A DNA stretch of 64,000 nucleotides from Rhizophagus irregularis (lineage: Eukaryota > Glomeromycota > Glomeromycetes > Glomerales > Glomeraceae). Under the pieces are notes generated by a model. That model saw nothing but the letters and a program-made list of their open reading frames with translations, was not told the DNA's origin and ran no database searches. The position numbers and the translations under genes are program-made. Positions 28,518 through 40,810 of this stretch are shown piece after piece (positions within the stretch are counted from its first letter, which is position 1; each line of letters starts with the position of its first letter). The stretch spans positions 1,178,001-1,242,000 of the forward strand of contig NC_089450.1 of NCBI RefSeq assembly GCF_026210795.1, given 5' to 3'.

Positions 28518-29773
28518 TGTAAACGGCCGAATATCAAGCATGAGAAGATGATAAAACGCCACCGCCAAATGTAATTATCAAGTATTAAGAACGAACAAAT
28601 TAATCGTGGATTGGTGTGGATGGATAAATAATTAGCCGAAAAGGATAAACATTTAAGAAGAGTAATGATCTGCATGATGTAATATTTATTGAATGATTGA
28701 CAAAGAACCAATAGGATAAATAGAGTCGATCATTTGCGGCTTAGCGATCTTTAACAATGAGAACGATAAGAAAGAATAATTATAAGCCACAAAAGATAGA
28801 TTATAAGCAAAACACATAAAGTGGATTAAAAGAATATATAAAATAATGTCGGAAAGATTGGAGAACACAAAATAATATAAAGGATAATATGAAAAGATGG
28901 CATAAAGATGGAATATAAAAGATAACATATTAAAAAGAATATATATAAAAGATAACACAAAGCCACAAAAGATGAATTATATCTTTACGACATAATATTT
29001 GAAAGATTATTTAAAGAAAAGGTAGCACAGCCATAAAAGATGGGTTATAAATTATTTCTTTGCGATGTAATATTTGAATAATAGAAAAGATAACATATAA
29101 AATAATATAAAAGATAGCATATTAAAAGATAGCGTATTTAAAATATAGATAGTATATTAGAAAGATAGTTCAAAGATAATATGTAAAGAACATAAAAGAT
29201 AGTATATAGATAGAATAGAAAATAGCATAAGAATTGTATATATAGAGAACGGAATTCAAAGTAATTCCATAGTTCTCATCCACAGAACTCAATAAAAATA
29301 TAAGTTTCATTTAAATTATTTGTTAATGAAGTTTAATGTTAATTAAAGGTAATAGGTTCGCCCTAAACTTTAATTAATGTTCGCTTAATTAATTTTAATT
29401 GAATAAAATGGAAATTTCAAGATGAATTAAATATATGTTTTTGGAAAGTAATAACTCGTAGTGAGAGCTATCGAAGTTTGAAATTAAAGGTAAAAGTGGA
29501 TATAATTTGGGGAAAATTTAGAGAAGTTAAATTTTATTTTATATCGTTCGACGTTTTATATTACTAACGCTATTTATGTTGTGAACCAAGAATGTTGTTG
29601 TATATTGTTTGTTGAGTTTGTTGTTTGTTAATTATGTTTTGATCACGTGTTTGTTCGTTTGATTGCTCGTTCGTTCGTTCGTTCGTTTGTTTATTCGCTC
29701 ATTCGTTCATTCGACTACGAACGCTCCCCGTTCGATGCGCAACTCAGAATACGACAGGTGGAATCGGATCTCA
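28518..29773 (+). repeat. 5' LTR
   Basis: TG...CA bounded. Contains a (TTCG)n stretch near 29661-29690 and many AAAGATAG words. It is nearly identical to the 3' LTR except for two short blocks, about 29252-29292 and about 29707-29773, that are much more diverged than the rest. Confidence 0.9.
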
Positions 29774-31229
29774 TATGGTGCATGCCGCAAGAAAGGAAAT
29801 GATCATCATCACATGATTATTATTATAATGAATATGAAAATTTAATTTCGTTAGTAAGTCACTGATAGGTATTATTAATCAATATTTTATTTTAGAATTT
29901 ATTTTTAGATTTCAGGTTTTGACGAGTTCAAAAGGAACCAATAAATCAACAAGGATTTAATCGAGTTAAAAACTTGAAAAGGTGAAAGATTGAAGTTTGA
30001 AGTTGTGCAAGTAATCACTTAATCGATAGAAAGCACAAGAATATTTCTTTCGGGAATAAAGTACCTGAGAAATTTCATAAGGAGATGTGGAAGTGAAAGA
30101 TGGATTTTGAAATAAAGATTAATAATGGGAGAACACCAATGTATTATCCGGGGTTCATCTGTGTGGTATGGGTTACCTCTGAGTTTGGATTTTGGATAAA
30201 TGCTCGAGATTGGAAAATTTTTATTCTTCGACATTAAAGATTATAACGTATGGGTTACGTCAAATCTGGATACCCAGCTCAATAACACGTGAATTGCTTT
30301 GGGGACGGGGAATGAAAATTGTAAAGACACCTACTTTATCAAAACATTGGATGGATAAAATGGGACAAACCTGTAAACTATCATGCTTTGACCGAAGGGA
30401 AAAAGATAGAGATAAGCCCAGTATAGGTCCACCAATTTAAGAAAGTTGGTTTAGATGAGTTTTATGGATAGCTGATGACTTTTGAAACTGGATTTCAGAA
30501 GATTAGATTCACCCGTTAAGAGACGAGTCGGCCAACGAAGGAGGAAAAGACGGATATGTTGTATTGTTACAGGTCCTAGGCTACATTTCAGATGAGGGTT
30601 CCTGGTGTAGTGTCCTAGTTCACGCTTTCATTACAATGTTCCGTTAAAAGAAGGAAAAAATAGAAGGATATTTACACGTTAACGAGCCGTATAATGAACA
30701 TTACGTGCAGTATTTAATAATAGAGTAAAATCCGAAAAGAAGGACATTTATTTAAAAGAAGAACATTTATTTGAAAAAGAATATTTATTTGAAAAAGAAC
30801 ATTTATTTGAAAAGAAAGACATTTATCTGAAAAGAACGACATTTTGTGTGTTATAGATTAATTTATATAATATAGAATATATAGTAAGAAGGATTTATGT
30901 GGACGATAAGAAAGATTGGAAATTCGCAAACCTTAAAACTCCAAAATTTTCATAAAGTTTGTGATATGTGAAATTATGGATCTTGGTGACAAAAAGATGT
31001 GACAAAAAGATGTGACAAAAAGAGGTGATAAGTGAAACTATGAATCACGGTGACGAAAAGATGTGACATGTGAAATTAGGGAAATCGGTGATAAAAGATA
31101 AATTTTATGGCGCAGTAAAAAACCTCCGCAGCCTGAGGAGATCGTGGACTTAGAAAAATTTTTGAAATTTCGAGGCGCAGCAAAAAATTAATAGTAAAAT
31201 ATGACGTAGTAAATATATAGAACCGAAAG
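29774..31229 (+). other. Retrotransposon untranslated leader
   Basis: About 1.45 kb between the LTR and the first coding sequence. Two direct-repeat tracts stand out: units with ACATTTATTTGAAAA at about 30740-30845 and units with GATGTGACAAAAA at about 30985-31075. No convincing ORF; the small ORFs at 30019-30440 are not conserved-looking. Leader roles such as packaging or translation control would be speculation. Confidence 0.55.
29776..29789 (+). promoter_or_regulatory. Candidate primer-binding site
   Basis: Two bases after the 5' LTR lies TGGTGCATGCCGC. A TGG start is expected for pairing with the CCA end of a tRNA. The tRNA species could not be determined from sequence alone. Confidence 0.5.
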
Positions 31230-31596
31230 ATGGAATCTAAGATTGAAAGAAGTAATCTATTTAAAGATGAAAGAATGTTTAGAAGATCAAAAATAGAAAT
31301 GATAAGAGTGAAATATATATATATAGAGAGAGGAATCCGATTGAGATTCTGGATGGATATTCGTAGTAATTTAACTAAAGCATATAATGGAATGGTACCA
31401 TCAATGGGAAAGCGAATATGTAACACATAAAGAGGAACACGAATTAGGAACGGAAGAATTGGATGAATGTTTAAATTGTGAATTATGTTATCCAATAGTA
31501 AATGAACCAATAGTATTCAAGAAATTTTGGGACGCGTTATTTAAATTTGAAGATGCAATAATAATATACAATGACGTAACGATTAAGGAGTATTAG
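31230..31596 (+). pseudogene. N-terminal part of the pre-gag ORF, frame-broken
   Basis: Two overlapping frames (31230-31430 and 31387-31596) give one protein-like stretch: a basic start (ATG 31230), then an acidic segment with a CLNCELC cluster (about 31468-31490). A frame change near 31400 links them, and a second one near 31595 would lead into the 605-codon ORF 12 bp downstream. They probably form its original N-terminus. The CxxC cluster echoes the clusters in the larger ORF. No family recognised. Confidence 0.5.
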
Positions 31597-31607
31597 ATTT
31601 ATTAAGT

Positions 31608-33425
31608 ATGAATAATTCAGAAAGGGAAGATACAATGCATAAAGGGAAATGTAGAGACATAATGGATAGAATAACGGAATCAATAAGATATAGAATACAA
31701 CCAAAAATGAAAGAAAGGGGATTACGAACAATTATATTAGTAATTGTAAGAGACTGTATTGAAAGAAATCTGGGGAATGAAGTATTTGATAGATTAATTG
31801 GAAATCCTGAATTAATAGAACACAAATATATTTTGGAAGATTGGGATGTTGAAAGAAGGTTTGAGAAATTTTGGCAATGGTATAGAATCACATCAAAAGA
31901 AATTGGACCATTACGAGTAAAGACAGGAGCAATAGAGACGTTTAGGGAGTTACTATATGAAGAAGAAGGAATAGCTATGAATGAGGAGAAAGTAAAGGAA
32001 CTAATGTCCAAAATAGAATATGAGAACATACATATAGAAAATGTTCACGAATATCACAAGAATATGATGCAAAAGATAATAAGAATATTTATAGACTTTA
32101 GGGGATTTACAAAAGAACCAGAAGATTCAGAAAGTGAAGATAGTCCAGCAAGTTACGAATTGGAAAATGATTCCGAGGAAGAATTAGAGATAATAATAGG
32201 AGATAAATCATGGAAATTTAGTGAATTAAGAAGAAGGTCAAATGTTATGGATGAAGATCAACTGAGGTACATTTGGAAAATAGGAATAAAGTTGATGATA
32301 GAAATGGATATATTGGTAACGAGAATATTTATGGATAAAATTCAAGAGATAGAGGAATTGGATGAAAGGGAAAAAGAATTGAGGATAAAAGAATGGTTAG
32401 AAAAAGAAACAATAAGATGTGAAAAATGTGGTAATAGAAGGTTCGAAATGGACGAAGCGGATAGCGAATGCGGGGAATGTGTTAAAGAAGCGCAGAAGAA
32501 TGAACAAGATGAGCTAATAGAATTGAGAAACAACTTAGAAAAATTGGGATATGATGAAATAGATGTGTCAGAAATTCAAAGAATGAAGAGTTTTGGGGTA
32601 AATAATCGAATAATAGTAACTAAAGAATTTGTGGAAGAATATATGGAAATGATAGATTTGGAAGATAAAGAATTAAGAAAAGAAATTCATAAGTGGTTAA
32701 ACCAGAATACAACTTGGTGCGAAAGATGCGAAATAAGATGGATGAATGATATGTTTAGATTAGGATGGATGGATGATATGTCTAGAGTAAGAGGAATGGT
32801 ATGCAAAGATTGTGAAGAAGAAAATATCGATGAAATTGATGATCGGGTAAAAAGATTACAGAAGATTTTTGAAGATATTGGAACAATAATAACTGAAGAA
32901 GAATTGTTGAGATTAACTAGTATGGGATATACAGATGGAGAAATTTTAGATAAAGAATTCATTGAAATCTTTCAAGAAAATAAAGATGAGTCGGAAAAAG
33001 AATTGAAGAAAAAATTAGATAAGTTGTTGAAAGAACAAGCGGGAATAATAGATAGTGAAGAAAGTGGCGAAAGAAGCGATAATGAAGAATCAGAAGAAGA
33101 TAATACAGATGATTCAGAAAAGATTGGAGAAATACTAAGTCCGGATGAAAGATGGGATGAAGATATTGAAAATTTTAACGAAGAAGAGTTTGAAGATGAA
33201 GTTGAAAATGTTATAAATAGAGGGGATAGCGACTTAAGTCAAAATTCAGATACGAATAGTTCATTAAATATTAAAAATTCTGACAACGAAAGTGAATTAT
33301 CTGATTACAATTTACAAGATTTATTTCAAGAGAATATATTGAATATGGCAACTGAGAATCAAGTAAAGAGAGTGTTAGAGAACGCTTTAGGCTATCCGGC
33401 TAATACTTTGAACGCAAAGCAGTAG
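31608..33425 (+). CDS. Acidic zinc-ribbon-like ORF upstream of gag, 605 residues, function unknown
   Basis: An intact ORF of 605 codons, by far the longest in the window. It is very charged and helical. It contains two diverged copies of a unit of roughly 100 residues: a KELRIKEWL / KELRKEIHKWL helix, then a four-cysteine cluster (C271, C274, C288, C291; and C371, C374, C399, C402), then a helix pair with MKSFGV / LTSMGY and TKEFVEEYME / DKEFIEIFQE. The CxxC...CxxC spacing suggests zinc ribbons. Residues about 480-570 are an acidic, serine-rich tail. The last ~30 residues (NQVKRVLENALGYPANTL) look like the normal start of Gag, and gag continues in another frame after about 33412. So this was probably an N-terminal Gag extension. 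I recognise no known family; nucleic-acid or protein binding is inference only. Confidence 0.7.
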   Translation: MNNSEREDTMHKGKCRDIMDRITESIRYRIQPKMKERGLRTIILVIVRDCIERNLGNEVFDRLIGNPELIEHKYILEDWDVERRFEKFWQWYRITSKEIGPLRVKTGAIETFRELLYEEEGIAMNEEKVKELMSKIEYENIHIENVHEYHKNMMQKIIRIFIDFRGFTKEPEDSESEDSPASYELENDSEEELEIIIGDKSWKFSELRRRSNVMDEDQLRYIWKIGIKLMIEMDILVTRIFMDKIQEIEELDEREKELRIKEWLEKETIRCEKCGNRRFEMDEADSECGECVKEAQKNEQDELIELRNNLEKLGYDEIDVSEIQRMKSFGVNNRIIVTKEFVEEYMEMIDLEDKELRKEIHKWLNQNTTWCERCEIRWMNDMFRLGWMDDMSRVRGMVCKDCEEENIDEIDDRVKRLQKIFEDIGTIITEEELLRLTSMGYTDGEILDKEFIEIFQENKDESEKELKKKLDKLLKEQAGIIDSEESGERSDNEESEEDNTDDSEKIGEILSPDERWDEDIENFNEEEFEDEVENVINRGDSDLSQNSDTNSSLNIKNSDNESELSDYNLQDLFQENILNMATENQVKRVLENALGYPANTLNAKQ

Positions 33426-33439
33426 GAGCAGGAGGAAGT

Positions 33440-34436
33440 TTGATAGATAGGATCGAAAATGCAGGAAATGAAGCAGGAGGAACAATTAGTATACCACTCT
33501 TTTATGGAAGAGAAGATGAAGATGTTACTGATTGGGTTAGACAATTCGAGGTAGCATTTGCAGCAGTCGGAAAAGCAGCGGGAGCTAATGGCGTAAGACA
33601 AGCGGTATACGCAGCAGCACATTTAAGAGGAGCAGCAGCGCAATGGTATAATGAAATGAAAGAAGTAAATGCAGGTCACTTAGTGAATTGGGCAGATGCA
33701 GATAATGATAATGATTTAAAGCATAGAATAAAAAGAAGATTTACCAGAGAGGATGTTAGAAGAAAGAAAATGCTAGAATTAAGAAAAAGCTCGACAAGGA
33801 ACAAATGAAAGTGTTGAAGAATATACAAGAAGATTTAGACAAATATTAAGAATAGCAACTAGAGGACATGCATTAGCAGATGAATATCAAGTAGATTTTT
33901 ACATCGAAGGATTAGAACCAACAATAGGATATCAAGTTAGAAGACAGAATCCAGCGAACTTAAATGGGGCGATAGAAATAGCAGTAAGAGAAGAAGGTGC
34001 AAAAGACGAATTTTTAAGAAAAGCAATAGGAACACCAATTAGTACGAAAATAGATATCGGAAAAGATGACAATAGACAAAATATGTTCGCAAAATCATTG
34101 AACGAAAATTATGAGGACGAATTAGCTGAAATGTTTAAAGAGAAGGCGAAAATTAGTAAATTAGAAAGAATGGTAGCAAATATGGAGAGAAGATTAAACA
34201 ACGATAATAGGGATAGGTATCAACCAAATATGGGAAGGAGATTAAATAATGGTAATAGGAATAGTTATCAATCAAACCAGAATAGGGTACCAACGTGTTT
34301 CGGATGTAATAGAATGGGGCATTACAAGAATAATTGTCCCGAAGGAAGGAATGCGAGAGTAAATATGATGGACGAATATGATGATCAAGAAGAATATTAT
34401 TATGATGAATATGGATACGAGGATCCAGCAATATAA
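33440..34436 (+). pseudogene. gag: gag capsid/nucleocapsid region, frame-broken
   Basis: A retrotransposon Gag domain begins with IENAGNEAGG and IPLFYGREDEDVTDWVRQFE, followed by HLRGAAAQWYNEM, the capsid-like helices of Ty3/Gypsy Gag. Near 33790 the frame changes; the next frame continues with VEEYTRRFRQILR, YIEGLEPTIGYQVRRQNP and a coiled segment, and ends with the CCHC zinc knuckle CFGCNRMGHYKNNCP (about 34290-34335) and a tyrosine/acid-rich tail to the stop at 34434-34436. Gag packages element RNA and forms the particle; the knuckle binds nucleic acid. The start was fused to the upstream 605-codon ORF until the break near 33412. Confidence 0.88.
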
Positions 34437-34561
34437 GAAGTATATTATGCCAAGGCTATTACGATGATTATGAAGATAGAGAATTAAATTATCATAATGA
34501 GTTATACGCAAAGGATGACGCAGTAAAAGGAAGAAGACAATCAAGAAGGACGAGTCCAATA

Positions 34562-34984
34562 GTGGGATATAAAAATAATAATGAAGAGGGAAATTTACAG
34601 GAAGAATTAAGAGAAGCAGGAAATAGAATGGATGATAGAGAAATACCAACTGGTATGACAGCACCAAATTATATACCTGAACGAACTGAACAAAATGGGG
34701 ATAGACCAATAGGACCAAAAGGAATGAGATGGAGTAATAAAAGGCAAGCTTATTATGACCCAACGGAAGGACTAAGAAAATGGAGAGAAGCAGGAGGACC
34801 AATGAAGCCCAGGGAGTATGGACCAAGATTAACTGACGGAATACCACCTTATGATATTGTAGGGGATGTGAAAAATTGTAGAGCGAATATAACATATGGA
34901 CAATTAATAAATGGGAATCCTAAGTATCATAAACAATTGAGAGAAGCAACATATAGACCAAGAAGTATAAACGAAAAAAATTGA
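34562..34984 (+). pseudogene. Gag-Pol linker region
   Basis: 140-codon ORF between the zinc knuckle and protease. It is proline- and arginine-rich; the C-terminal part (PPYDIVGDVKNCRANITYGQ, then NPKYHKQLRE) resembles the linker that precedes protease in other fungal Ty3/Gypsy elements. It opens after a frame break following the gag stop and closes at a TGA ten bases before the protease ORF start, so the original polyprotein is interrupted here too. No enzymatic motif is visible. Confidence 0.6.
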
Positions 34985-34993
34985 CTACACTCG

Positions 34994-35398
34994 GTGGGAA
35001 CTATGAAAAATGAAGAGAAGAAAACTACAGCAATGAGAACAGAATTAGAAGTTGAAGATCAATTAGTGAGCGTAATAATAGATACCGGAGCAGCAGTAAG
35101 TGTGATAACAGATAAATTAAGAAGAAGATTGAATATACCTATATTTGGAAAAAGTAAATTTAGATGTACAATAGCAAATGGGCAAAAGATAGCAGCGTTA
35201 GGAAAAGCAAATATAACTTTAAGATACAAAGATGAATTAGAGATACTAAAAGAAGTTGAAGTAATAGATTCAGAAGAAGAGGATCTAATTTTGGGAAATG
35301 ATATATGGAAGCTGTATAATGCAAGAATAAATTTCGAAGATCATAGCCTTAAGGATAGAAAAACAGGGAGAAATAATAACGATCCCAGTAGGATATGA
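34994..35398 (+). pseudogene. Retrotransposon aspartic protease
   Basis: 134-codon ORF with the retropepsin hallmark VSVIIDTGAAVSVITDKL (catalytic Asp-Thr-Gly) near residue 30 and the second conserved block DLILGNDIWKLYNARINFE near 90. It would cleave the Gag-Pol polyprotein as a homodimer. The frame breaks near 35372; the following acidic stretch to about 35498 lies in another frame and ends in TAG before the RT frame opens. Confidence 0.85.
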
Positions 35399-35530
35399 AA
35401 GAGAAGCAATATATGAAAGCGAAGAGAGTGAGGACGATGAAGAATATGAAAGTAACGATGAGGGAGAGGTATTCAAAATGCACCAGAATTTTAAATAGAG
35501 AGTCTTGGCTCTGAGAGAGAGACGGAAAAG

Positions 35531-36544
35531 ATGCTCGAACCAAGTGAAAAATTTATGCAAAAATTAAGTATAGGGAAAGTAGAAGAACCAATTTGGGAAA
35601 ATATGGTAAAATTATTATTAGAATACCAAGATATTTTGGAGTATGACAAAGAAATAGAAGGGAGAACAAAAGCGGCGCAACATGAGATAAAAATAAAAGA
35701 TGGAGTAGAACCGATAAAACAAAGAAGATACAAGGAAACAGACGAAAAGGCAAAATTTATAAGCGAAGAAGTAGATAAATTATTAAGACAAGGAAGGATA
35801 AGAAAATCAAAAAGTCCGTGGAGTTCACCGGTTACATTAGCAGGAAAGAAAATGGGAAAATATAGATTCTGTATTGATTACAGAAAGTTAAACAAGATAA
35901 CTATAATGGATAGTTTTCCTTTACCAAGAATGGATGAATTGTTAGACAAATATAGAAAAGCAAAATGGTTTTCAAGCATAGATTTAGCAGCAGGATTTAA
36001 TCAAGTAGAAATGAAAGAAGAAGACAAAGAAAAAACAGCATTTGTATGTTCAAAGGGATTATTTGAGTATAATGTAATGCCATTCGGTTTAACGAACGCA
36101 CCAGCAACATTTCAAAGATTAATGGATGAAATATTAGAAGAATACATAAATGATTTTGTGGTAGTATATATTGACGATATTATGATATATTCAGGAAATT
36201 TGAAAGACCATATGGAACATGTGGAAAAAGTATTAAAGAAGTTACAGGAGAATAATTTGATAATAAAATTAAAGAAATGTAGATTTTTGGAAAGAAATAT
36301 AGAATTTTTAGGACATATAGTAGGAAATGATGGATTAAGGCCAGACGATAAAAAGATAGAAAAGATAAGAGAAATGAAGGCACCAACAACAGTGAAAGAA
36401 GTAAGATCATTTTTGGGACTTTGTTCATATTACAGAAAATTTGTGAAAAACTTTTCAAAGATAGCAAGACCAATAAGTGATTTGAGAAAGAAGGAGTACC
36501 TTTCATTTGGGGAAGAGAACAACGAGAAGCATTTGAAAGATTGA
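35531..36544 (+). pseudogene. pol: Reverse transcriptase domain, frame broken at its 3' end
   Basis: 338-codon ORF covering nearly the whole RT palm and fingers: CIDYRKLNKITIMDSFPLPR, FSSIDLAAGFNQVEM, FVCSKGLFEYNVMPFGLTNAPATFQ, the catalytic VVVYIDDIMIYS (YIDD), LKKCRFLERNIEFLGHIVG and SFLGLCSYYRKFVKNFSKIARP. These are the ordered Ty3/Gypsy RT blocks with both active-site aspartates present. Near 36492 one base appears missing relative to the frame of the following ORF, so the last 15 codons are off-frame and the connection to RNase H is lost, unless a frameshift restores it. Confidence 0.95.
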
Positions 36545-37611
36545 AAGAAAAATTAATACAATATCCGATATTACGACATCCAGATTGGAAGAAAGAATTT
36601 TTATTAATAACAGATGCATCAGGAAAAGGATTAGGTGCAGTATTAAGTCAAAAAGATGAAAAAGGAAAAGAAGTAGTGATAGCATACGCAAGTAGAAGTT
36701 TATTGCCAGCAGAAGAAAATTATCCGATAACAGAATTGGAATGTTTAGGAATAGTTTGGGGAATTCAACATTTTCATAAATATTTGATCGATAGAAAGTT
36801 TAAAGTAATAACAGATCACAGTGCATTGAAAGGATTAATGAATGCAAAGATACCAAAAGGAAAAAGAGCAAGATGGGTAATGGAATTACAACAATATAAT
36901 TTTGAAGTAATACATAGATCAGGAAAAGAAAACACGAACGCTGACGCGTTAAGTAGGTTATTAAAGATAGTAGAAGACCAACCAGAAATAGTAATAATTG
37001 ACGGAGTGGATGGATTAGGAAAAACAAGTATAGTACAAAATTTAATTAAAGAATGGGAAAAACAAGGATTGAAAGTAAGATTCAACACTTATAAAAGAAG
37101 GAGAAAAGATAAAGATGAATTTCACGAATCAAAGATGGAGACGGAATGGAAATTTAGAAAAGAAGTAGTGGAACAAATAAACAGAAGAATGTTAGAATAT
37201 GATGAAGATACAGATATAATAATTTTAGACAAATCACCATATTGTGAATATTATTATCAAAAGACGAAAAGTTTTGACAGAGGATTAATTACTCCACATG
37301 GAAATCACGAGATGGAAAAAGAAATATTCAGATTGAAAGAAACAATAGATAAATCAATAGCGATATTTTTAGAAAAAGATGGCAATGTATGTTGGGAAAA
37401 TTACATTGGAAGAGAAACAAAGAAAACGGAAAAATCATCATATCCAACATTAAAGAAGGATGAATATTTGGACATGGTTAAAATGTTTGAAGAAAATCAG
37501 AGTGTGTACAAAGATACCAAAAGATACAGTCGAGTAAAAGTTAAAAATGACAATAGTAGTTGGAGAAAAGTATTTAAAGAGGTGGAGAAATGGAGAAGAA
37601 CACAGAACTAA
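36541..37611 (+). CDS. pol: RNase H fused to a P-loop thymidylate/deoxynucleoside-kinase-like domain
   Basis: 356-codon ORF overlapping the end of the RT frame by 4 bp. Residues about 1-140 are Ty3/Gypsy RNase H (ITDASGKGLGAVLSQ, ITELECLGIVWGIQHFHKYL, VITDHSALKGLM, NTNADALSRL), acting on the RNA of RNA:DNA hybrids. After NADALSRL, where integrase normally follows, the same frame continues for about 210 residues. VIIDGVDGLGKTSIVQNLIK holds a perfect Walker A motif (G155-T162). IIILDKSPYCEYYYQ (about 226-240) resembles the DR(Y/S)-x-S signature of thymidylate and deoxynucleoside kinases with K for R. Length and order (P-loop, RF-rich basic segment, D-x-S motif, RLKETIDKSIAIFL strand) fit a small nucleotide kinase. 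No frame break lies inside. Substrate is unknown; a non-kinase P-loop ATPase is the main alternative. A stop at 37609-37611 separates it from integrase, which is in another frame. Confidence 0.8.
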   Translation: MKEKLIQYPILRHPDWKKEFLLITDASGKGLGAVLSQKDEKGKEVVIAYASRSLLPAEENYPITELECLGIVWGIQHFHKYLIDRKFKVITDHSALKGLMNAKIPKGKRARWVMELQQYNFEVIHRSGKENTNADALSRLLKIVEDQPEIVIIDGVDGLGKTSIVQNLIKEWEKQGLKVRFNTYKRRRKDKDEFHESKMETEWKFRKEVVEQINRRMLEYDEDTDIIILDKSPYCEYYYQKTKSFDRGLITPHGNHEMEKEIFRLKETIDKSIAIFLEKDGNVCWENYIGRETKKTEKSSYPTLKKDEYLDMVKMFEENQSVYKDTKRYSRVKVKNDNSSWRKVFKEVEKWRRTQN

Positions 37612-37672
37612 AAATACAGAACACATAACGAAAATAACGAATTTAAGAAGCAAAATCAATTAAAGAGATATT

Positions 37673-38898
37673 ATGGAAGAAGATAATTACAAGAGAATAA
37701 TTGACAATATCGAAAAGGAGAATAAATATGAATTGAAAGAGGGAATTCTATATAGAGTAAAAGGACAAAACAAATTTAGAGTAATCAGGGATTATGAATA
37801 TGAAGGATTGATGTACGTGATGCATGATAATGAATTATCAGGGACATTTTGGGATAGAAGCAACATTAGATAGAATAAAAGAAAATTATTGGTGGAAAAA
37901 TATGAAAGAAGATGTAGAAGAATATGTAAGAACGTGCTGGAATTGTCAAATGAGAGGAAAACCAAGAGGAAAGAACGAATTAACGCCAATAAAAATAAAT
38001 GAACCATTTGAGATGATTGGGATAGATATAGTTGGACCATTAAAAGAGACAGAAAAGGGAAATAAGTACATTGTAGTAGCAATGGATTATTTTACAAAAT
38101 GGCCCGAAGCCGCACCACTAAAAGAAGCTACAGCAAAAGAAGTAGTAGAATTTATTTGGAGGGACATAATTTGTAGACATGGATGTCAAAGAAAATAATT
38201 AGCGATAGAGGGCTCACTTTAACAATAAAATGATGGAAGAATTAGTAGAAAGGTGTGGAATAAACCATAGATTAAGTACACCATATAGGCCACAAACAAA
38301 TGGTCTGGTCGAAAGATTCAATAAAACTTTATGCGAAGGATTAGCCAAATTAGGAGAAGAAAATTGGGATAAACATATACCATCTGTATTATTTGCATAT
38401 AGGACAAAGAAGCAATCATCAACAAGAATTAAACCTTTTTATGCAACATACGGAAGAAGAGCAAAACTACCATTAGATAAAGACGAAAATAAAATAACAT
38501 TAACTGATAGAATAAAAATATTAATTGAAGAGCTACCGGTAATAAGAAGGAAAATAAAAGAAAATGTGAAAGAAGCTCAAGAGAAACAAAAACAACAACA
38601 TGACAAAAGAGGAATTAGAAAACCTAAATTTGAAATAGGAGAAAAAGTATTATTATATGAAGCATGGAGAGAGAAACAATGGTCTGGAAAATTACAGAGC
38701 AAATGGAAAGGACCATATTTAATTCACGAAGAATTTGGAAATGGAGCATACAAACTTAAAGAATTGGATGGAAGAATACTAAAAACACCACAAAATGGAG
38801 AATGGTTAAAGAAATTTTATGATCGAAGGGGATTTACACCAAAAATAGTAATTAAAGGAAAAGAGGTATTCGATAAGACCCGAGTTCGATTCGATTAA
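37673..38898 (+). pseudogene. Integrase, frame-broken
   Basis: Three frames together form a Ty3/Gypsy integrase. The first (37673-37873) gives the N-terminal region up to the first zinc-binding histidine (VMHDNELSG). The second (37824-38198) gives the rest of the HHCC domain (GHFGIEATLDRIKENYWW, CWNC) and the first catalytic aspartate (MIGIDIVGPL). Indels near 38190-38220 destroy the block around the second aspartate. The third (38230-38898) holds the catalytic glutamate in PQTNGLVERFNKTL, then FAYRTKKQSST and a GKWKGPY-type C-terminal domain. There is no chromodomain. It would insert the cDNA; this copy cannot be functional. Confidence 0.9.
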
Positions 38899-38960
38899 AA
38901 TTATTATAAATGAGACCCGAGTTCGATTCTTTTAAAGTTATTTGTGAGGTCACAAATAGC

Positions 38961-38971
38961 GAAGAGGGGGA
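38961..38971 (+). promoter_or_regulatory. Polypurine tract
   Basis: GAAGAGGGGGA lies three bases before the 3' LTR, the expected position for the plus-strand primer of reverse transcription. Confidence 0.75.
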
Positions 38972-38974
38972 TAA

Positions 38975-40230
38975 TGTAAACGGCCGAATATCAAGCATGA
39001 GAAGATGATAAAACGCCACCGCCAAATGTAATTATCAAGTATTAAGAACGAACAAATTAATCGTGGATTGGTGTGGATGGATAAATAATTAGCCGAAAAG
39101 GATAAACATTTAAGAAGAGTAATGATCTGCATGATGTAATATTTATTGAATGATTGACAAAGAACCAATAGGATAAATAGAGTCGATCATTTGCGGCTTA
39201 GCGATCTTTAACAATGAGAACGATAAGAAAGAATAATTATAAGCCACAAAAGATAGATTATAAGCAAAACACATAAAGTGGATTAAAAGAATATATAAAA
39301 TAATGTCGGAAAGATTGGAGAACACAAAATAATATAAAGGATAATATGAAAAGATGGCATAAAGATGGAATATAAAAGATAACATATTAAAAAGAATATA
39401 TATAAAAGATAACACAGCCACAAAAGATGAATTATATCTTTACGACATAATATTTGAAAAATTATTTAAAGAAAAGGTAGCACAGCCATAAAAGATGGGT
39501 TATAAATTATTTCTTTGCGATGTAATATTTGAATAATAGAAAAGATAACATATAAAATAATATAAAAGATAGCATATTAAAAGATAGCGTATTTAAAATA
39601 TAGATAGTATATTAGAAAGATAGTTCAAAGATAATATGTAAAGAACATAAAAGATAGTATATAGATAGAATAGAAAATAGCATAAGAATTGTATATATAG
39701 AGAACGGAATTGAAAGTAATTGTAGTTATATCATGAAGCTCAATAAAAATATAAGTTTCATTTAAATTATTTGTTAATGAAGTTTAATGTTAATTAAAGG
39801 TAATAGGTTCGCCCTAAACTTTAATTAATGTTCGCTTAATTAATTTTAATTGAATAAAATGGAAATTTCAAGATGAATTAAATATATGTTTTTGGAAAGT
39901 AATAACTCGTAGCGAGAGCTATCGAAGTTTGAAATTAAAGGTAAAAGTGGATATAATTTGGGGAAAATTTAGAGAAGTTAAATTTTATTTTATATCGTTC
40001 GACGTTTTATATTACTAACGCTATTTATGTTGTGAACCAAGAATGTTGTTGTATATTGTTTGTTGAGTTTGTTGTTTGTTAATTATGTTTTGATCACGTG
40101 TTTGTTCGTTTGATTGCTCGTTCGTTCGTTCGTTCGTTTGTTTGTTCGCTCATTCGTTCATTCGACCATGAGAATGCCCGTTCGATGTGGCAACCTTGTA
40201 AATTGATGACAGGGGGAATCGGGGATCTCA
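38975..40230 (+). repeat. 3' LTR
   Basis: Same length and TG...CA ends as the 5' LTR. It differs from it mainly in two clustered blocks (about 39708-39740 and about 40166-40230). The host Harbinger-like sequence resumes at 40231 (GGTACTATAG). Confidence 0.9.
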
Positions 40231-40283
40231 GGTACTATAGTCCGCTATATACGGTAATTATTTTATATATAATTACTATAATG

Positions 40284-40760
40284 CAATTATCTTGACTTCT
40301 AGTGATTTAAACTTTTTTTTAATTTATAGCTCTCATTTAGCTCTACAAACTACAAATCTAGCTTTAAAAAAACAAAAAAAAGTTTGTTTAAATTAAATCA
40401 CTAGAAGCCAAGATAATTGTATTTATATTATATATAATAATTATTATAATGCAATTATCTTGACTTCTAGTGATCCAATTTTAATAAACTTTTTTTTGTT
40501 TCATAGCTCTCATTTAATTCTACAAATATAGCTTTACAAAACAAAAAAAAGTTTGTTCAAATTGAATCACTAGAAGCCAAGATAATTGTATTTATAATTT
40601 ATATTATAATATAATTATTATAATGCAATTATTTTAACTTCTAGTGATCTAATTTTAATAAACTTTTTTTTAATTTATAGCACTCATTTAGCTTTAAAAG
40701 TCTAGCTTTACAAAAAAAAAAAAGTTTGTTCAAATTGAATTACTAGAAGCTAAAATAATT
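40284..40760. repeat. Array of three palindromic units
   Basis: Units at about 40284-40420, 40452-40589 and 40626-40760 each begin CAATTAT(C/T)TT(G/A)ACTTCTAG and end with the inverted CTAGAAGC(C/T)AA(G/A)ATAATT around a T-run, TAGC(T/A)CTCATTTA and an A-run. Each unit can fold into a long hairpin. They belong to the right arm of the Harbinger-like element. Confidence 0.8.
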
Positions 40761-40810
40761 ATATAATACTAATTATTATATATAATATTTAATATTTTTA
40801 AAATAGTAAT

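Follow-up and report, generated by a model that had tools for sequence, protein, structure and literature searches.

Why does the pol region of a fungal retrotransposon run on past RNase H into a P-loop domain before integrase begins? The question arises in a 64,000-nucleotide stretch of the Rhizophagus irregularis genome (contig NC_089450.1; hereafter the window), where an element with two long terminal repeats (LTRs), a pre-gag open reading frame (ORF), gag, protease, reverse transcriptase (RT), RNase H, the P-loop domain, and integrase spans positions 28518-40230. We think it probable, with appreciable room for doubt, that a Ty3/Gypsy lineage of the Glomeromycotina gained a thymidylate kinase (TMPK)-like domain, that is, a deoxynucleoside monophosphate (dNMP) kinase, between RNase H and integrase and that purifying selection has kept it there. 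Our grounds are the predicted fold of the domain, its homology, position, and spread, the selection acting on it, and its exchange as a cassette between two families.

The kinase domain and its relatives

The domain lies in an open frame on the forward strand (36541-37611) that leads from RNase H through NADALSRL, the Walker A motif GVDGLGKT, and ILDKSPYCEYYYQ to a stop codon at 37609-37611, with no stop in between. All Pfam integrase matches start only past that stop codon. The initial annotation, made from the letters of the sequence, had described both the continuous frame from the RNase H end through the two motifs and the late start of integrase, and both were recovered here. The features of the domain are as follows.

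36967..37611, + strand: kinase domain of the TMPK/deoxynucleoside kinase (dNK) superfamily, in the same open frame as RNase H
37003..37026, + strand: Walker A motif GVDGLGKT; pattern in 75 of 77 near-full copies
37228..37260, + strand: DKSPYCEYYYQ, aligned with the TMPK DR motif; pattern DKSPY[CS]EY[YF]YQ in 75 of 77 near-full copies
37393..37416, + strand: LID-like motif W-x-N-Y-x-x-R-E; pattern in all 77 near-full copies

The PHROG 761 thymidylate kinase profile matched all 33 aligned members of the kinase family (best E value, 6e-16; window residues 8-209), and the similarity to TMPKs extended over nearly the full length (hhalign, 97.4%). The P-loop GVDGxGK has the Asp/Glu typical of TMPKs, and the Arg of the LID-like motif was invariant in a joint alignment of element kinases and phage TMPKs. 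Among NCBIfam models, dTMP kinase scored 21 bits for the window copy, above guanylate kinase at 17.2, and the dNK family (PF01712) was absent both from the Pfam matches listed for the window copy and from the 25 families found most often across the 33 members. A sequence search of the PDB returned no TMPK at a significant E value; the best matches were to the P-loop region of FtsY (E value, 0.1 with the single sequence and 4e-6 with a profile). Together, the predicted fold and the sequence support placing the domain in the nucleotide-kinase (TMPK/NMP kinase) superfamily, in line with the nucleotide-kinase-like assignment of the initial annotation.

Copies, selection, and exchange among families

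We searched the R. irregularis genome (146.7 Mb, 32 contigs) with the window kinase and obtained 151 matches at E ≤ 1e-3, fragments included. Of the 150 listed matches, 112 had no internal stop by hand count; the other 38 contained stops, part of which probably mark where a shorter frame ends naturally. When grouped by how closely they resemble the kinase of the window copy, most matches fell into the families S1 (∼94-100%; the window's own family, with 56 near-full copies), S2 (∼84-88%), S3 and S4 (∼59-66%), and S5 (∼54-58%), with a few copies at 75-77% falling outside all of these. A further search used the window's RT as the query; 119 of its 316 candidates were scored and paired with 150 of the 151 kinase matches. 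For 116 of these 119 RT hits, a kinase match lay on the same strand within 3 kb downstream, and for the remaining 3 it lay at 3.3, 5.5, and 16.3 kb. Conversely, 121 of the 150 listed kinase matches had one of the 119 RT hits within 3 kb upstream.

The closest named proteins are from R. irregularis (98% identical across the kinase region), and named relatives elsewhere come from R. clarus, R. diaphanus, and Glomus cerebriforme. In several relatives, the kinase is joined in one protein with RNase H or with integrase, and some such proteins already bear automatic names, e.g., "thymidylate kinase." In the profile search, named matches at E ≤ 1e-7 were all from Rhizophagus or Glomus, the sole weaker row being P0114 (E value, 0.99), and a search seeded with the relative P0082 gave only already-known family members. 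P0082, a JGI protein (kinase identity, 45%), has a NUDIX domain on the N-terminal side of its kinase and so combines two nucleotide-handling domains in one protein.

The order RT-RNase H-kinase-integrase was found in all five loci compared (the 9.9-kb loci of S2 to S5, one each, and the 3.6-kb S1 locus). In S1 to S4, the RT-RNase H frame has the kinase at its C-terminal end, and integrase follows in a separate open frame; the S1 copy L002, for instance, has a single 706-amino-acid (aa) frame for RT, RNase H, and kinase and then a 411-aa integrase frame. The kinase abuts RNase H in S1 and is joined to it by a linker of ∼75-85 residues in S2 to S4. In S5, the RT-RNase H frame stops at ALSRII, and the kinase is N-terminal in a 600-aa kinase-integrase frame. 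The kinase cassette thus sits at the same border in all of these families, on either side of a translational break. Integrase occupied its own open frame past a stop at L002, L055, L056, L057, and L059, a layout in which integrase expression needs explaining (by reinitiation, frameshift, or splicing). Shortly 3' of the S5 element (L058, 8887-9900), protein-kinase-like ORF pieces were noticed by eye.

To gauge selection, the ratio of nonsynonymous to synonymous divergence (dN/dS) was computed from Nei-Gojobori counts pooled over pairs, which are not independent, with a codon bootstrap. The first set drew on loci L001 to L058; stops and partial domains were left out, identical copies were merged, and gap columns were dropped. 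Since L001 to L030 are the 30 best-scoring kinase matches, this set is biased toward conserved proteins, and the discovery of several S2 to S5 loci via the kinase profile favors a conserved P-loop. For the kinase recount, the 26 remaining of the first 56 listed matches were added; the RT, RNase H, integrase, and between-family values come from the first loci. Within S1, kinase dN/dS was 0.074 (0.048-0.107; 56 near-full copies, 51 distinct, 1,275 pairs), changing to 0.075 when two stop-bearing copies were removed, and was 0.079 in the 26 added copies alone and 0.068 in the first 30 loci. Between families it was 0.159 (0.115-0.212; 475 pairs), a rough figure because dS was often >1. The corresponding values within S1 and between families were 0.030 and 0.127 for RT, 0.024 and 0.188 for RNase H, and 0.068 and 0.188 for N-terminal integrase, so that in S1 the constraint on the kinase resembles that on integrase and is weaker than that on RT and RNase H. 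Kinase alignments read in the wrong frames gave 0.86-4.15. These data support purifying selection on the kinase. A chance ORF is ruled out by the genome-wide matches and the dN/dS values, and an artifact of one copy is ruled out by the many copies and the related species. The initial annotation had left room for a one-off insertion free of purifying selection; what was found is a recurrent, constrained domain, and the relatives that lack it are separate families.

The kinase has also moved between families. RT and RNase H placed S2 with S3 (support, 100/100) and then S4 (99/99), whereas the S2 kinase grouped with S1 (SH-aLRT, 99). In sliding windows, the nucleotide/amino acid identity between S1 and S2 rose from 69-79/58-72% in RNase H to 85-94/78-98% in the kinase, and that between S2 and S3 dropped from 86-92/82-100% to 67-79/58-82% across the same switch. 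Further, dS between S1 and S2 was 0.64 in the kinase versus 1.46 in RT, 0.89 in RNase H, and 1.94 in N-terminal integrase. The tree conflict, the identity switch, and the dS values together indicate that the kinase moved between S1 and S2 by recombination, most simply, we infer, through template switching between co-packaged RNAs. So sharp a swap between two families shows that pol domains are able to move as modules.

We compared these loci with ten regions (L059 to L068) chosen non-randomly from 150 listed integrase hits, all without a nearby listed kinase. None of the ten contained a kinase match; nine contained both RNase H and integrase, and L065 contained integrase only. The gap between RNase H and integrase was 321-372 bases in seven of them, 1222 in L061, and 1762 in L063, compared with 863-1575 bases in six kinase-bearing loci. 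In the nearest of these families (L059), ∼150 bases of the RNase H-integrase stretch aligned with the kinase-integrase spacers of S3 (score, 182) and S4 (153), the best of 100 shuffles being 95 and 79, respectively; in the same test the S1 and S2 spacers did not match it. The S3/S4 kinase therefore sits between RNase H and a spacer that either predates the arrival of the kinase or has outlasted its loss. In the tree built from RT and RNase H, the 12 rows that bear a kinase fell on one side of a branch whose support (89/96) is not decisive, with the L059 family adjoining, and in the integrase tree the kinase-less L059, L066, and L068 lay beside S1 (SH-aLRT, 85). This conflict makes integrase exchange, or loss of the kinase, possible.

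Two further observations concern the same border. L061 (1360-2248) and L063 represent a kinase-less Gypsy family in which an additional ∼1.2-1.8 kb separates RNase H from integrase; the RNase H frame of L061 continues through this insert and is Cys-rich by eye there, and no Pfam family matched the 296 residues scanned. A small ORF of 47-50 aa (..NYHC[IV]LFEDK..[KR]FILPFE.EIE..L) precedes integrase in L057, L056, and L059 and is alike in kinase-bearing and kinase-less families, being cut by the excerpt in L059.

Proposed role, alternatives, and precedents

Reverse transcription requires deoxynucleoside triphosphates (dNTPs), and the hyphae and spores of arbuscular mycorrhizal fungi divide little. 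We propose that the kinase is translated within Pol, C-terminal to RNase H in S1 to S4 and N-terminal to integrase in S5, and would end up in or near the virus-like particle. There it could phosphorylate dTMP (or another dNMP) using ATP, raising dTDP (or another deoxynucleoside diphosphate) where reverse transcription happens and making that reaction less dependent on dNTPs from the host in hyphae and spores that divide slowly. The logic would be analogous to that of the dUTPase at the same pol position in non-primate lentiviruses. In its broadest form, the idea is that a fifth pol enzyme, a nucleotide kinase, marks a whole LTR-retrotransposon lineage, passes between families as a cassette, and enables copying in nucleotide-poor, non-dividing hyphae; to us this is as credible as its opposite. 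If the proposal is right, no earlier example of a reverse-transcribing element with its own dNMP kinase would be known, and the kinase would be an independent solution further down the lentiviral dUTPase pathway at the same place in pol. The finding also makes it possible to test directly how the supply of dNTPs and the activity of transposons are linked in arbuscular mycorrhizal fungi.

Several points weigh against this proposal. The TMPK DR motif reads DK in all 33 aligned members, with the Asp kept and Lys in place of Arg. The profile comparison envisaged in the initial annotation bore out TMPK similarity over nearly the full length with PHROG 761, but the window copy scored 16.9 and 20.6 bits with Thymidylate_kin (PF02223), short of the gathering score of 27. 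Likewise, the structure prediction bore out a nucleotide-kinase fold, with TMPK and dNK tied in Z score and not separable. Other P-loop families score beside TMPK, including the phrog_800 terminase in 19 of 33 members. Within S1, over the first 30 loci, kinase dN/dS exceeds that of RT and RNase H. Kinase-less Gypsy families occur in the same genome, so elements of this kind can do without the kinase, and TMPK genes are also present in the host. It is important to note that the enzymatic activity, substrate, expression, and particle association are proposed from sequence.

The tie in predicted structure bears on whether the domain is instead a dNK, converting deoxynucleosides to dNMPs; we consider this unlikely, as thymidylate kinase profiles (NCBIfam and PHROG 761) lead the nucleotide-kinase matches, PF01712 is missing from the families named above, and the P-loop carries the TMPK-type Asp/Glu. 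The exchange of Arg for Lys in the DR motif, together with a weak match between P0082 and a family of phage polynucleotide kinases (E value, 0.0016), would fit a kinase fold repurposed within Pol for a structural role or for nucleic acid binding, or as a polynucleotide or protein kinase. Against this, which we hold to be quite unlikely, stand the near-complete retention of the Walker A and LID-like motifs and the far higher scores of thymidylate kinase profiles. A functionless passenger spread by hitch-hiking alone might account for the stop-bearing copies and for the persistence of kinase-less families. However, the low in-frame dN/dS (0.07-0.16, versus 0.86-4.15 out of frame) and the retention of the motifs are unlike a passenger, as is the retention of the kinase across families and species; the dN/dS values already contradict this explanation, and we give it only the slightest chance.

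A separate matter, compatible with a dNMP kinase function, is the origin of the domain. The initial annotation had the element capturing a host kinase, which parsimony would favor, given that host TMPK genes lie at two places in the genome and that PHROG 761, the broad profile matched by the element kinases, also recognizes the first host TMPK exon (E value, 2e-7). When looked for, this capture was not supported: the kinase profile reached the P-loop exon of one host TMPK only (FEGCDKAGKSTQ, 14 bits) and gave nothing of note at the other place, neither place was among the 150 listed matches at E ≤ 1e-3, and the host enzyme has a different type of P-loop (FEGCDKAGKST). We regard an origin from the fungus's own TMPK gene as improbable. 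A recent phage, viral, or bacterial donor was not found either: tblastn against phages gave no match for the window kinase and, with the relative P0026, weak partial matches only (best E value, 5e-3), and pattern scans with the profile through IMG/VR and GTDB genomes yielded no donor. The element kinases share with phage TMPKs (e.g., those of Pseudomonas phage EL and Erwinia phage Yoloswag) the P-loop GxDGxGKT, the Asp of D(R/K), the LID Arg, and a near-full-length profile match. They differ in reading DK where the phage enzymes read DR, and the phage genes stand alone; the joint alignment gave 15-19% identity between the phage enzymes and the kinase of the window copy.

The folds of dUTPase and the kinase differ. 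According to PMC4531489, non-primate lentiviruses carry their dUTPase at the border of RNase H and integrase. The enzyme turns dUTP into dUMP, on which thymidylate synthase acts, and it matters mainly in non-dividing cells; the likeness lies in an extra nucleotide enzyme at that position and on the pathway to dTTP, and the difference in that those are animal viruses with a dUTPase and this is a fungal Gypsy element with a kinase. LTR retrotransposons of fungi, rotifers, and planarians have likewise added a nucleotide enzyme, a dUTPase, but between protease and RT according to the available portions of PMC5408684 and PMC6431247, and the word "kinase" occurs 0 times in the main texts of both. 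Captured enzyme domains of another sort, acting on RNA or DNA methylation rather than on nucleotides, are the AlkB m6A demethylase ORF of Phalaenopsis orchid Gypsy elements (PMC9289625, in part) and the DNA methyltransferases of some retrotransposons (PMC5890265, in part). The genome of R. irregularis, a model arbuscular mycorrhizal fungus, is about half repetitive sequence (PMC11075540, in part), and by search count "thymidylate kinase" appears 0 times in the transposon papers PMC8647823 and PMC11075540. Among the papers listed by our literature search, with most subscription journals outside its reach, none dealt with a retrotransposon that carries a nucleotide kinase, and we found no retroelement reported to have captured a nucleotide enzyme of this class.

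The element in the window

The remaining features of the window copy are as follows.

28518..29773, + strand: 5' LTR; direct repeats, from blastn of both flanks
31608..33425, + strand: pre-gag ORF, 605 aa; open frame, with related frames in the S2, S4, and S5 loci
33440..34436, + strand: gag, in two open pieces (33440-33808 and 34083-34436), with a CCHC knuckle in the second
34994..35398, + strand: aspartic protease (gag-asp_proteas; E value, 3e-9)
35531..36544, + strand: RT (RVT_1; E value, 2e-44)
36541..36960, + strand: RNase H, sharing its frame with the kinase (Pfam RT_RNaseH; E value, 6e-38)
37824..38898, + strand: integrase, in two open pieces (37824-38198 and 38230-38898; Integrase_H2C2 E value, 2e-18; rve_3 E value, 2e-6)
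38961..38971, + strand: polypurine-tract-like run preceding the 3' LTR, read by eye
38975..40230, + strand: 3' LTR; blastn of both flanks

The LTRs were 97.15% identical across 1263 columns (22 mismatches by blastn). Because they flank gag and pol, the element is an LTR retrotransposon, as the initial annotation had it, and it has the Ty3/Gypsy pol order of protease-RT-RNase H-integrase, integrase last, with the kinase inserted between RNase H and integrase. Some matches fell under the Pfam cut-off, namely, Retrotrans_gag (E value, 0.0025) and zf-CCHC (0.0011) in gag and rve (4e-5) in integrase. This copy is broken, with interruptions in the gag, RT/RNase H, and integrase frames. The five bases flanking the LTRs on each side, compared by eye for a target-site duplication in this one copy with the ends as blastn set them, differed. 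A Pfam scan of nine element frames (E ≤ 1) contained no dUTPase domain (PF00692).

No Pfam match to the pre-gag ORF reached the cut-off; by eye, the predicted product is acidic and has repeated CxxC pairs. It is 79% identical to its counterpart in the S2 locus, although gag is 52% and RT 66% identical, and this contrast is another mosaic. In the S2 locus, the pre-gag ORF and gag are fused in one 1153-aa frame. Directly behind the 3' LTR (40258-40788), a repeat occurs three times at ∼170-base spacing, together with an inverted-repeat pair.
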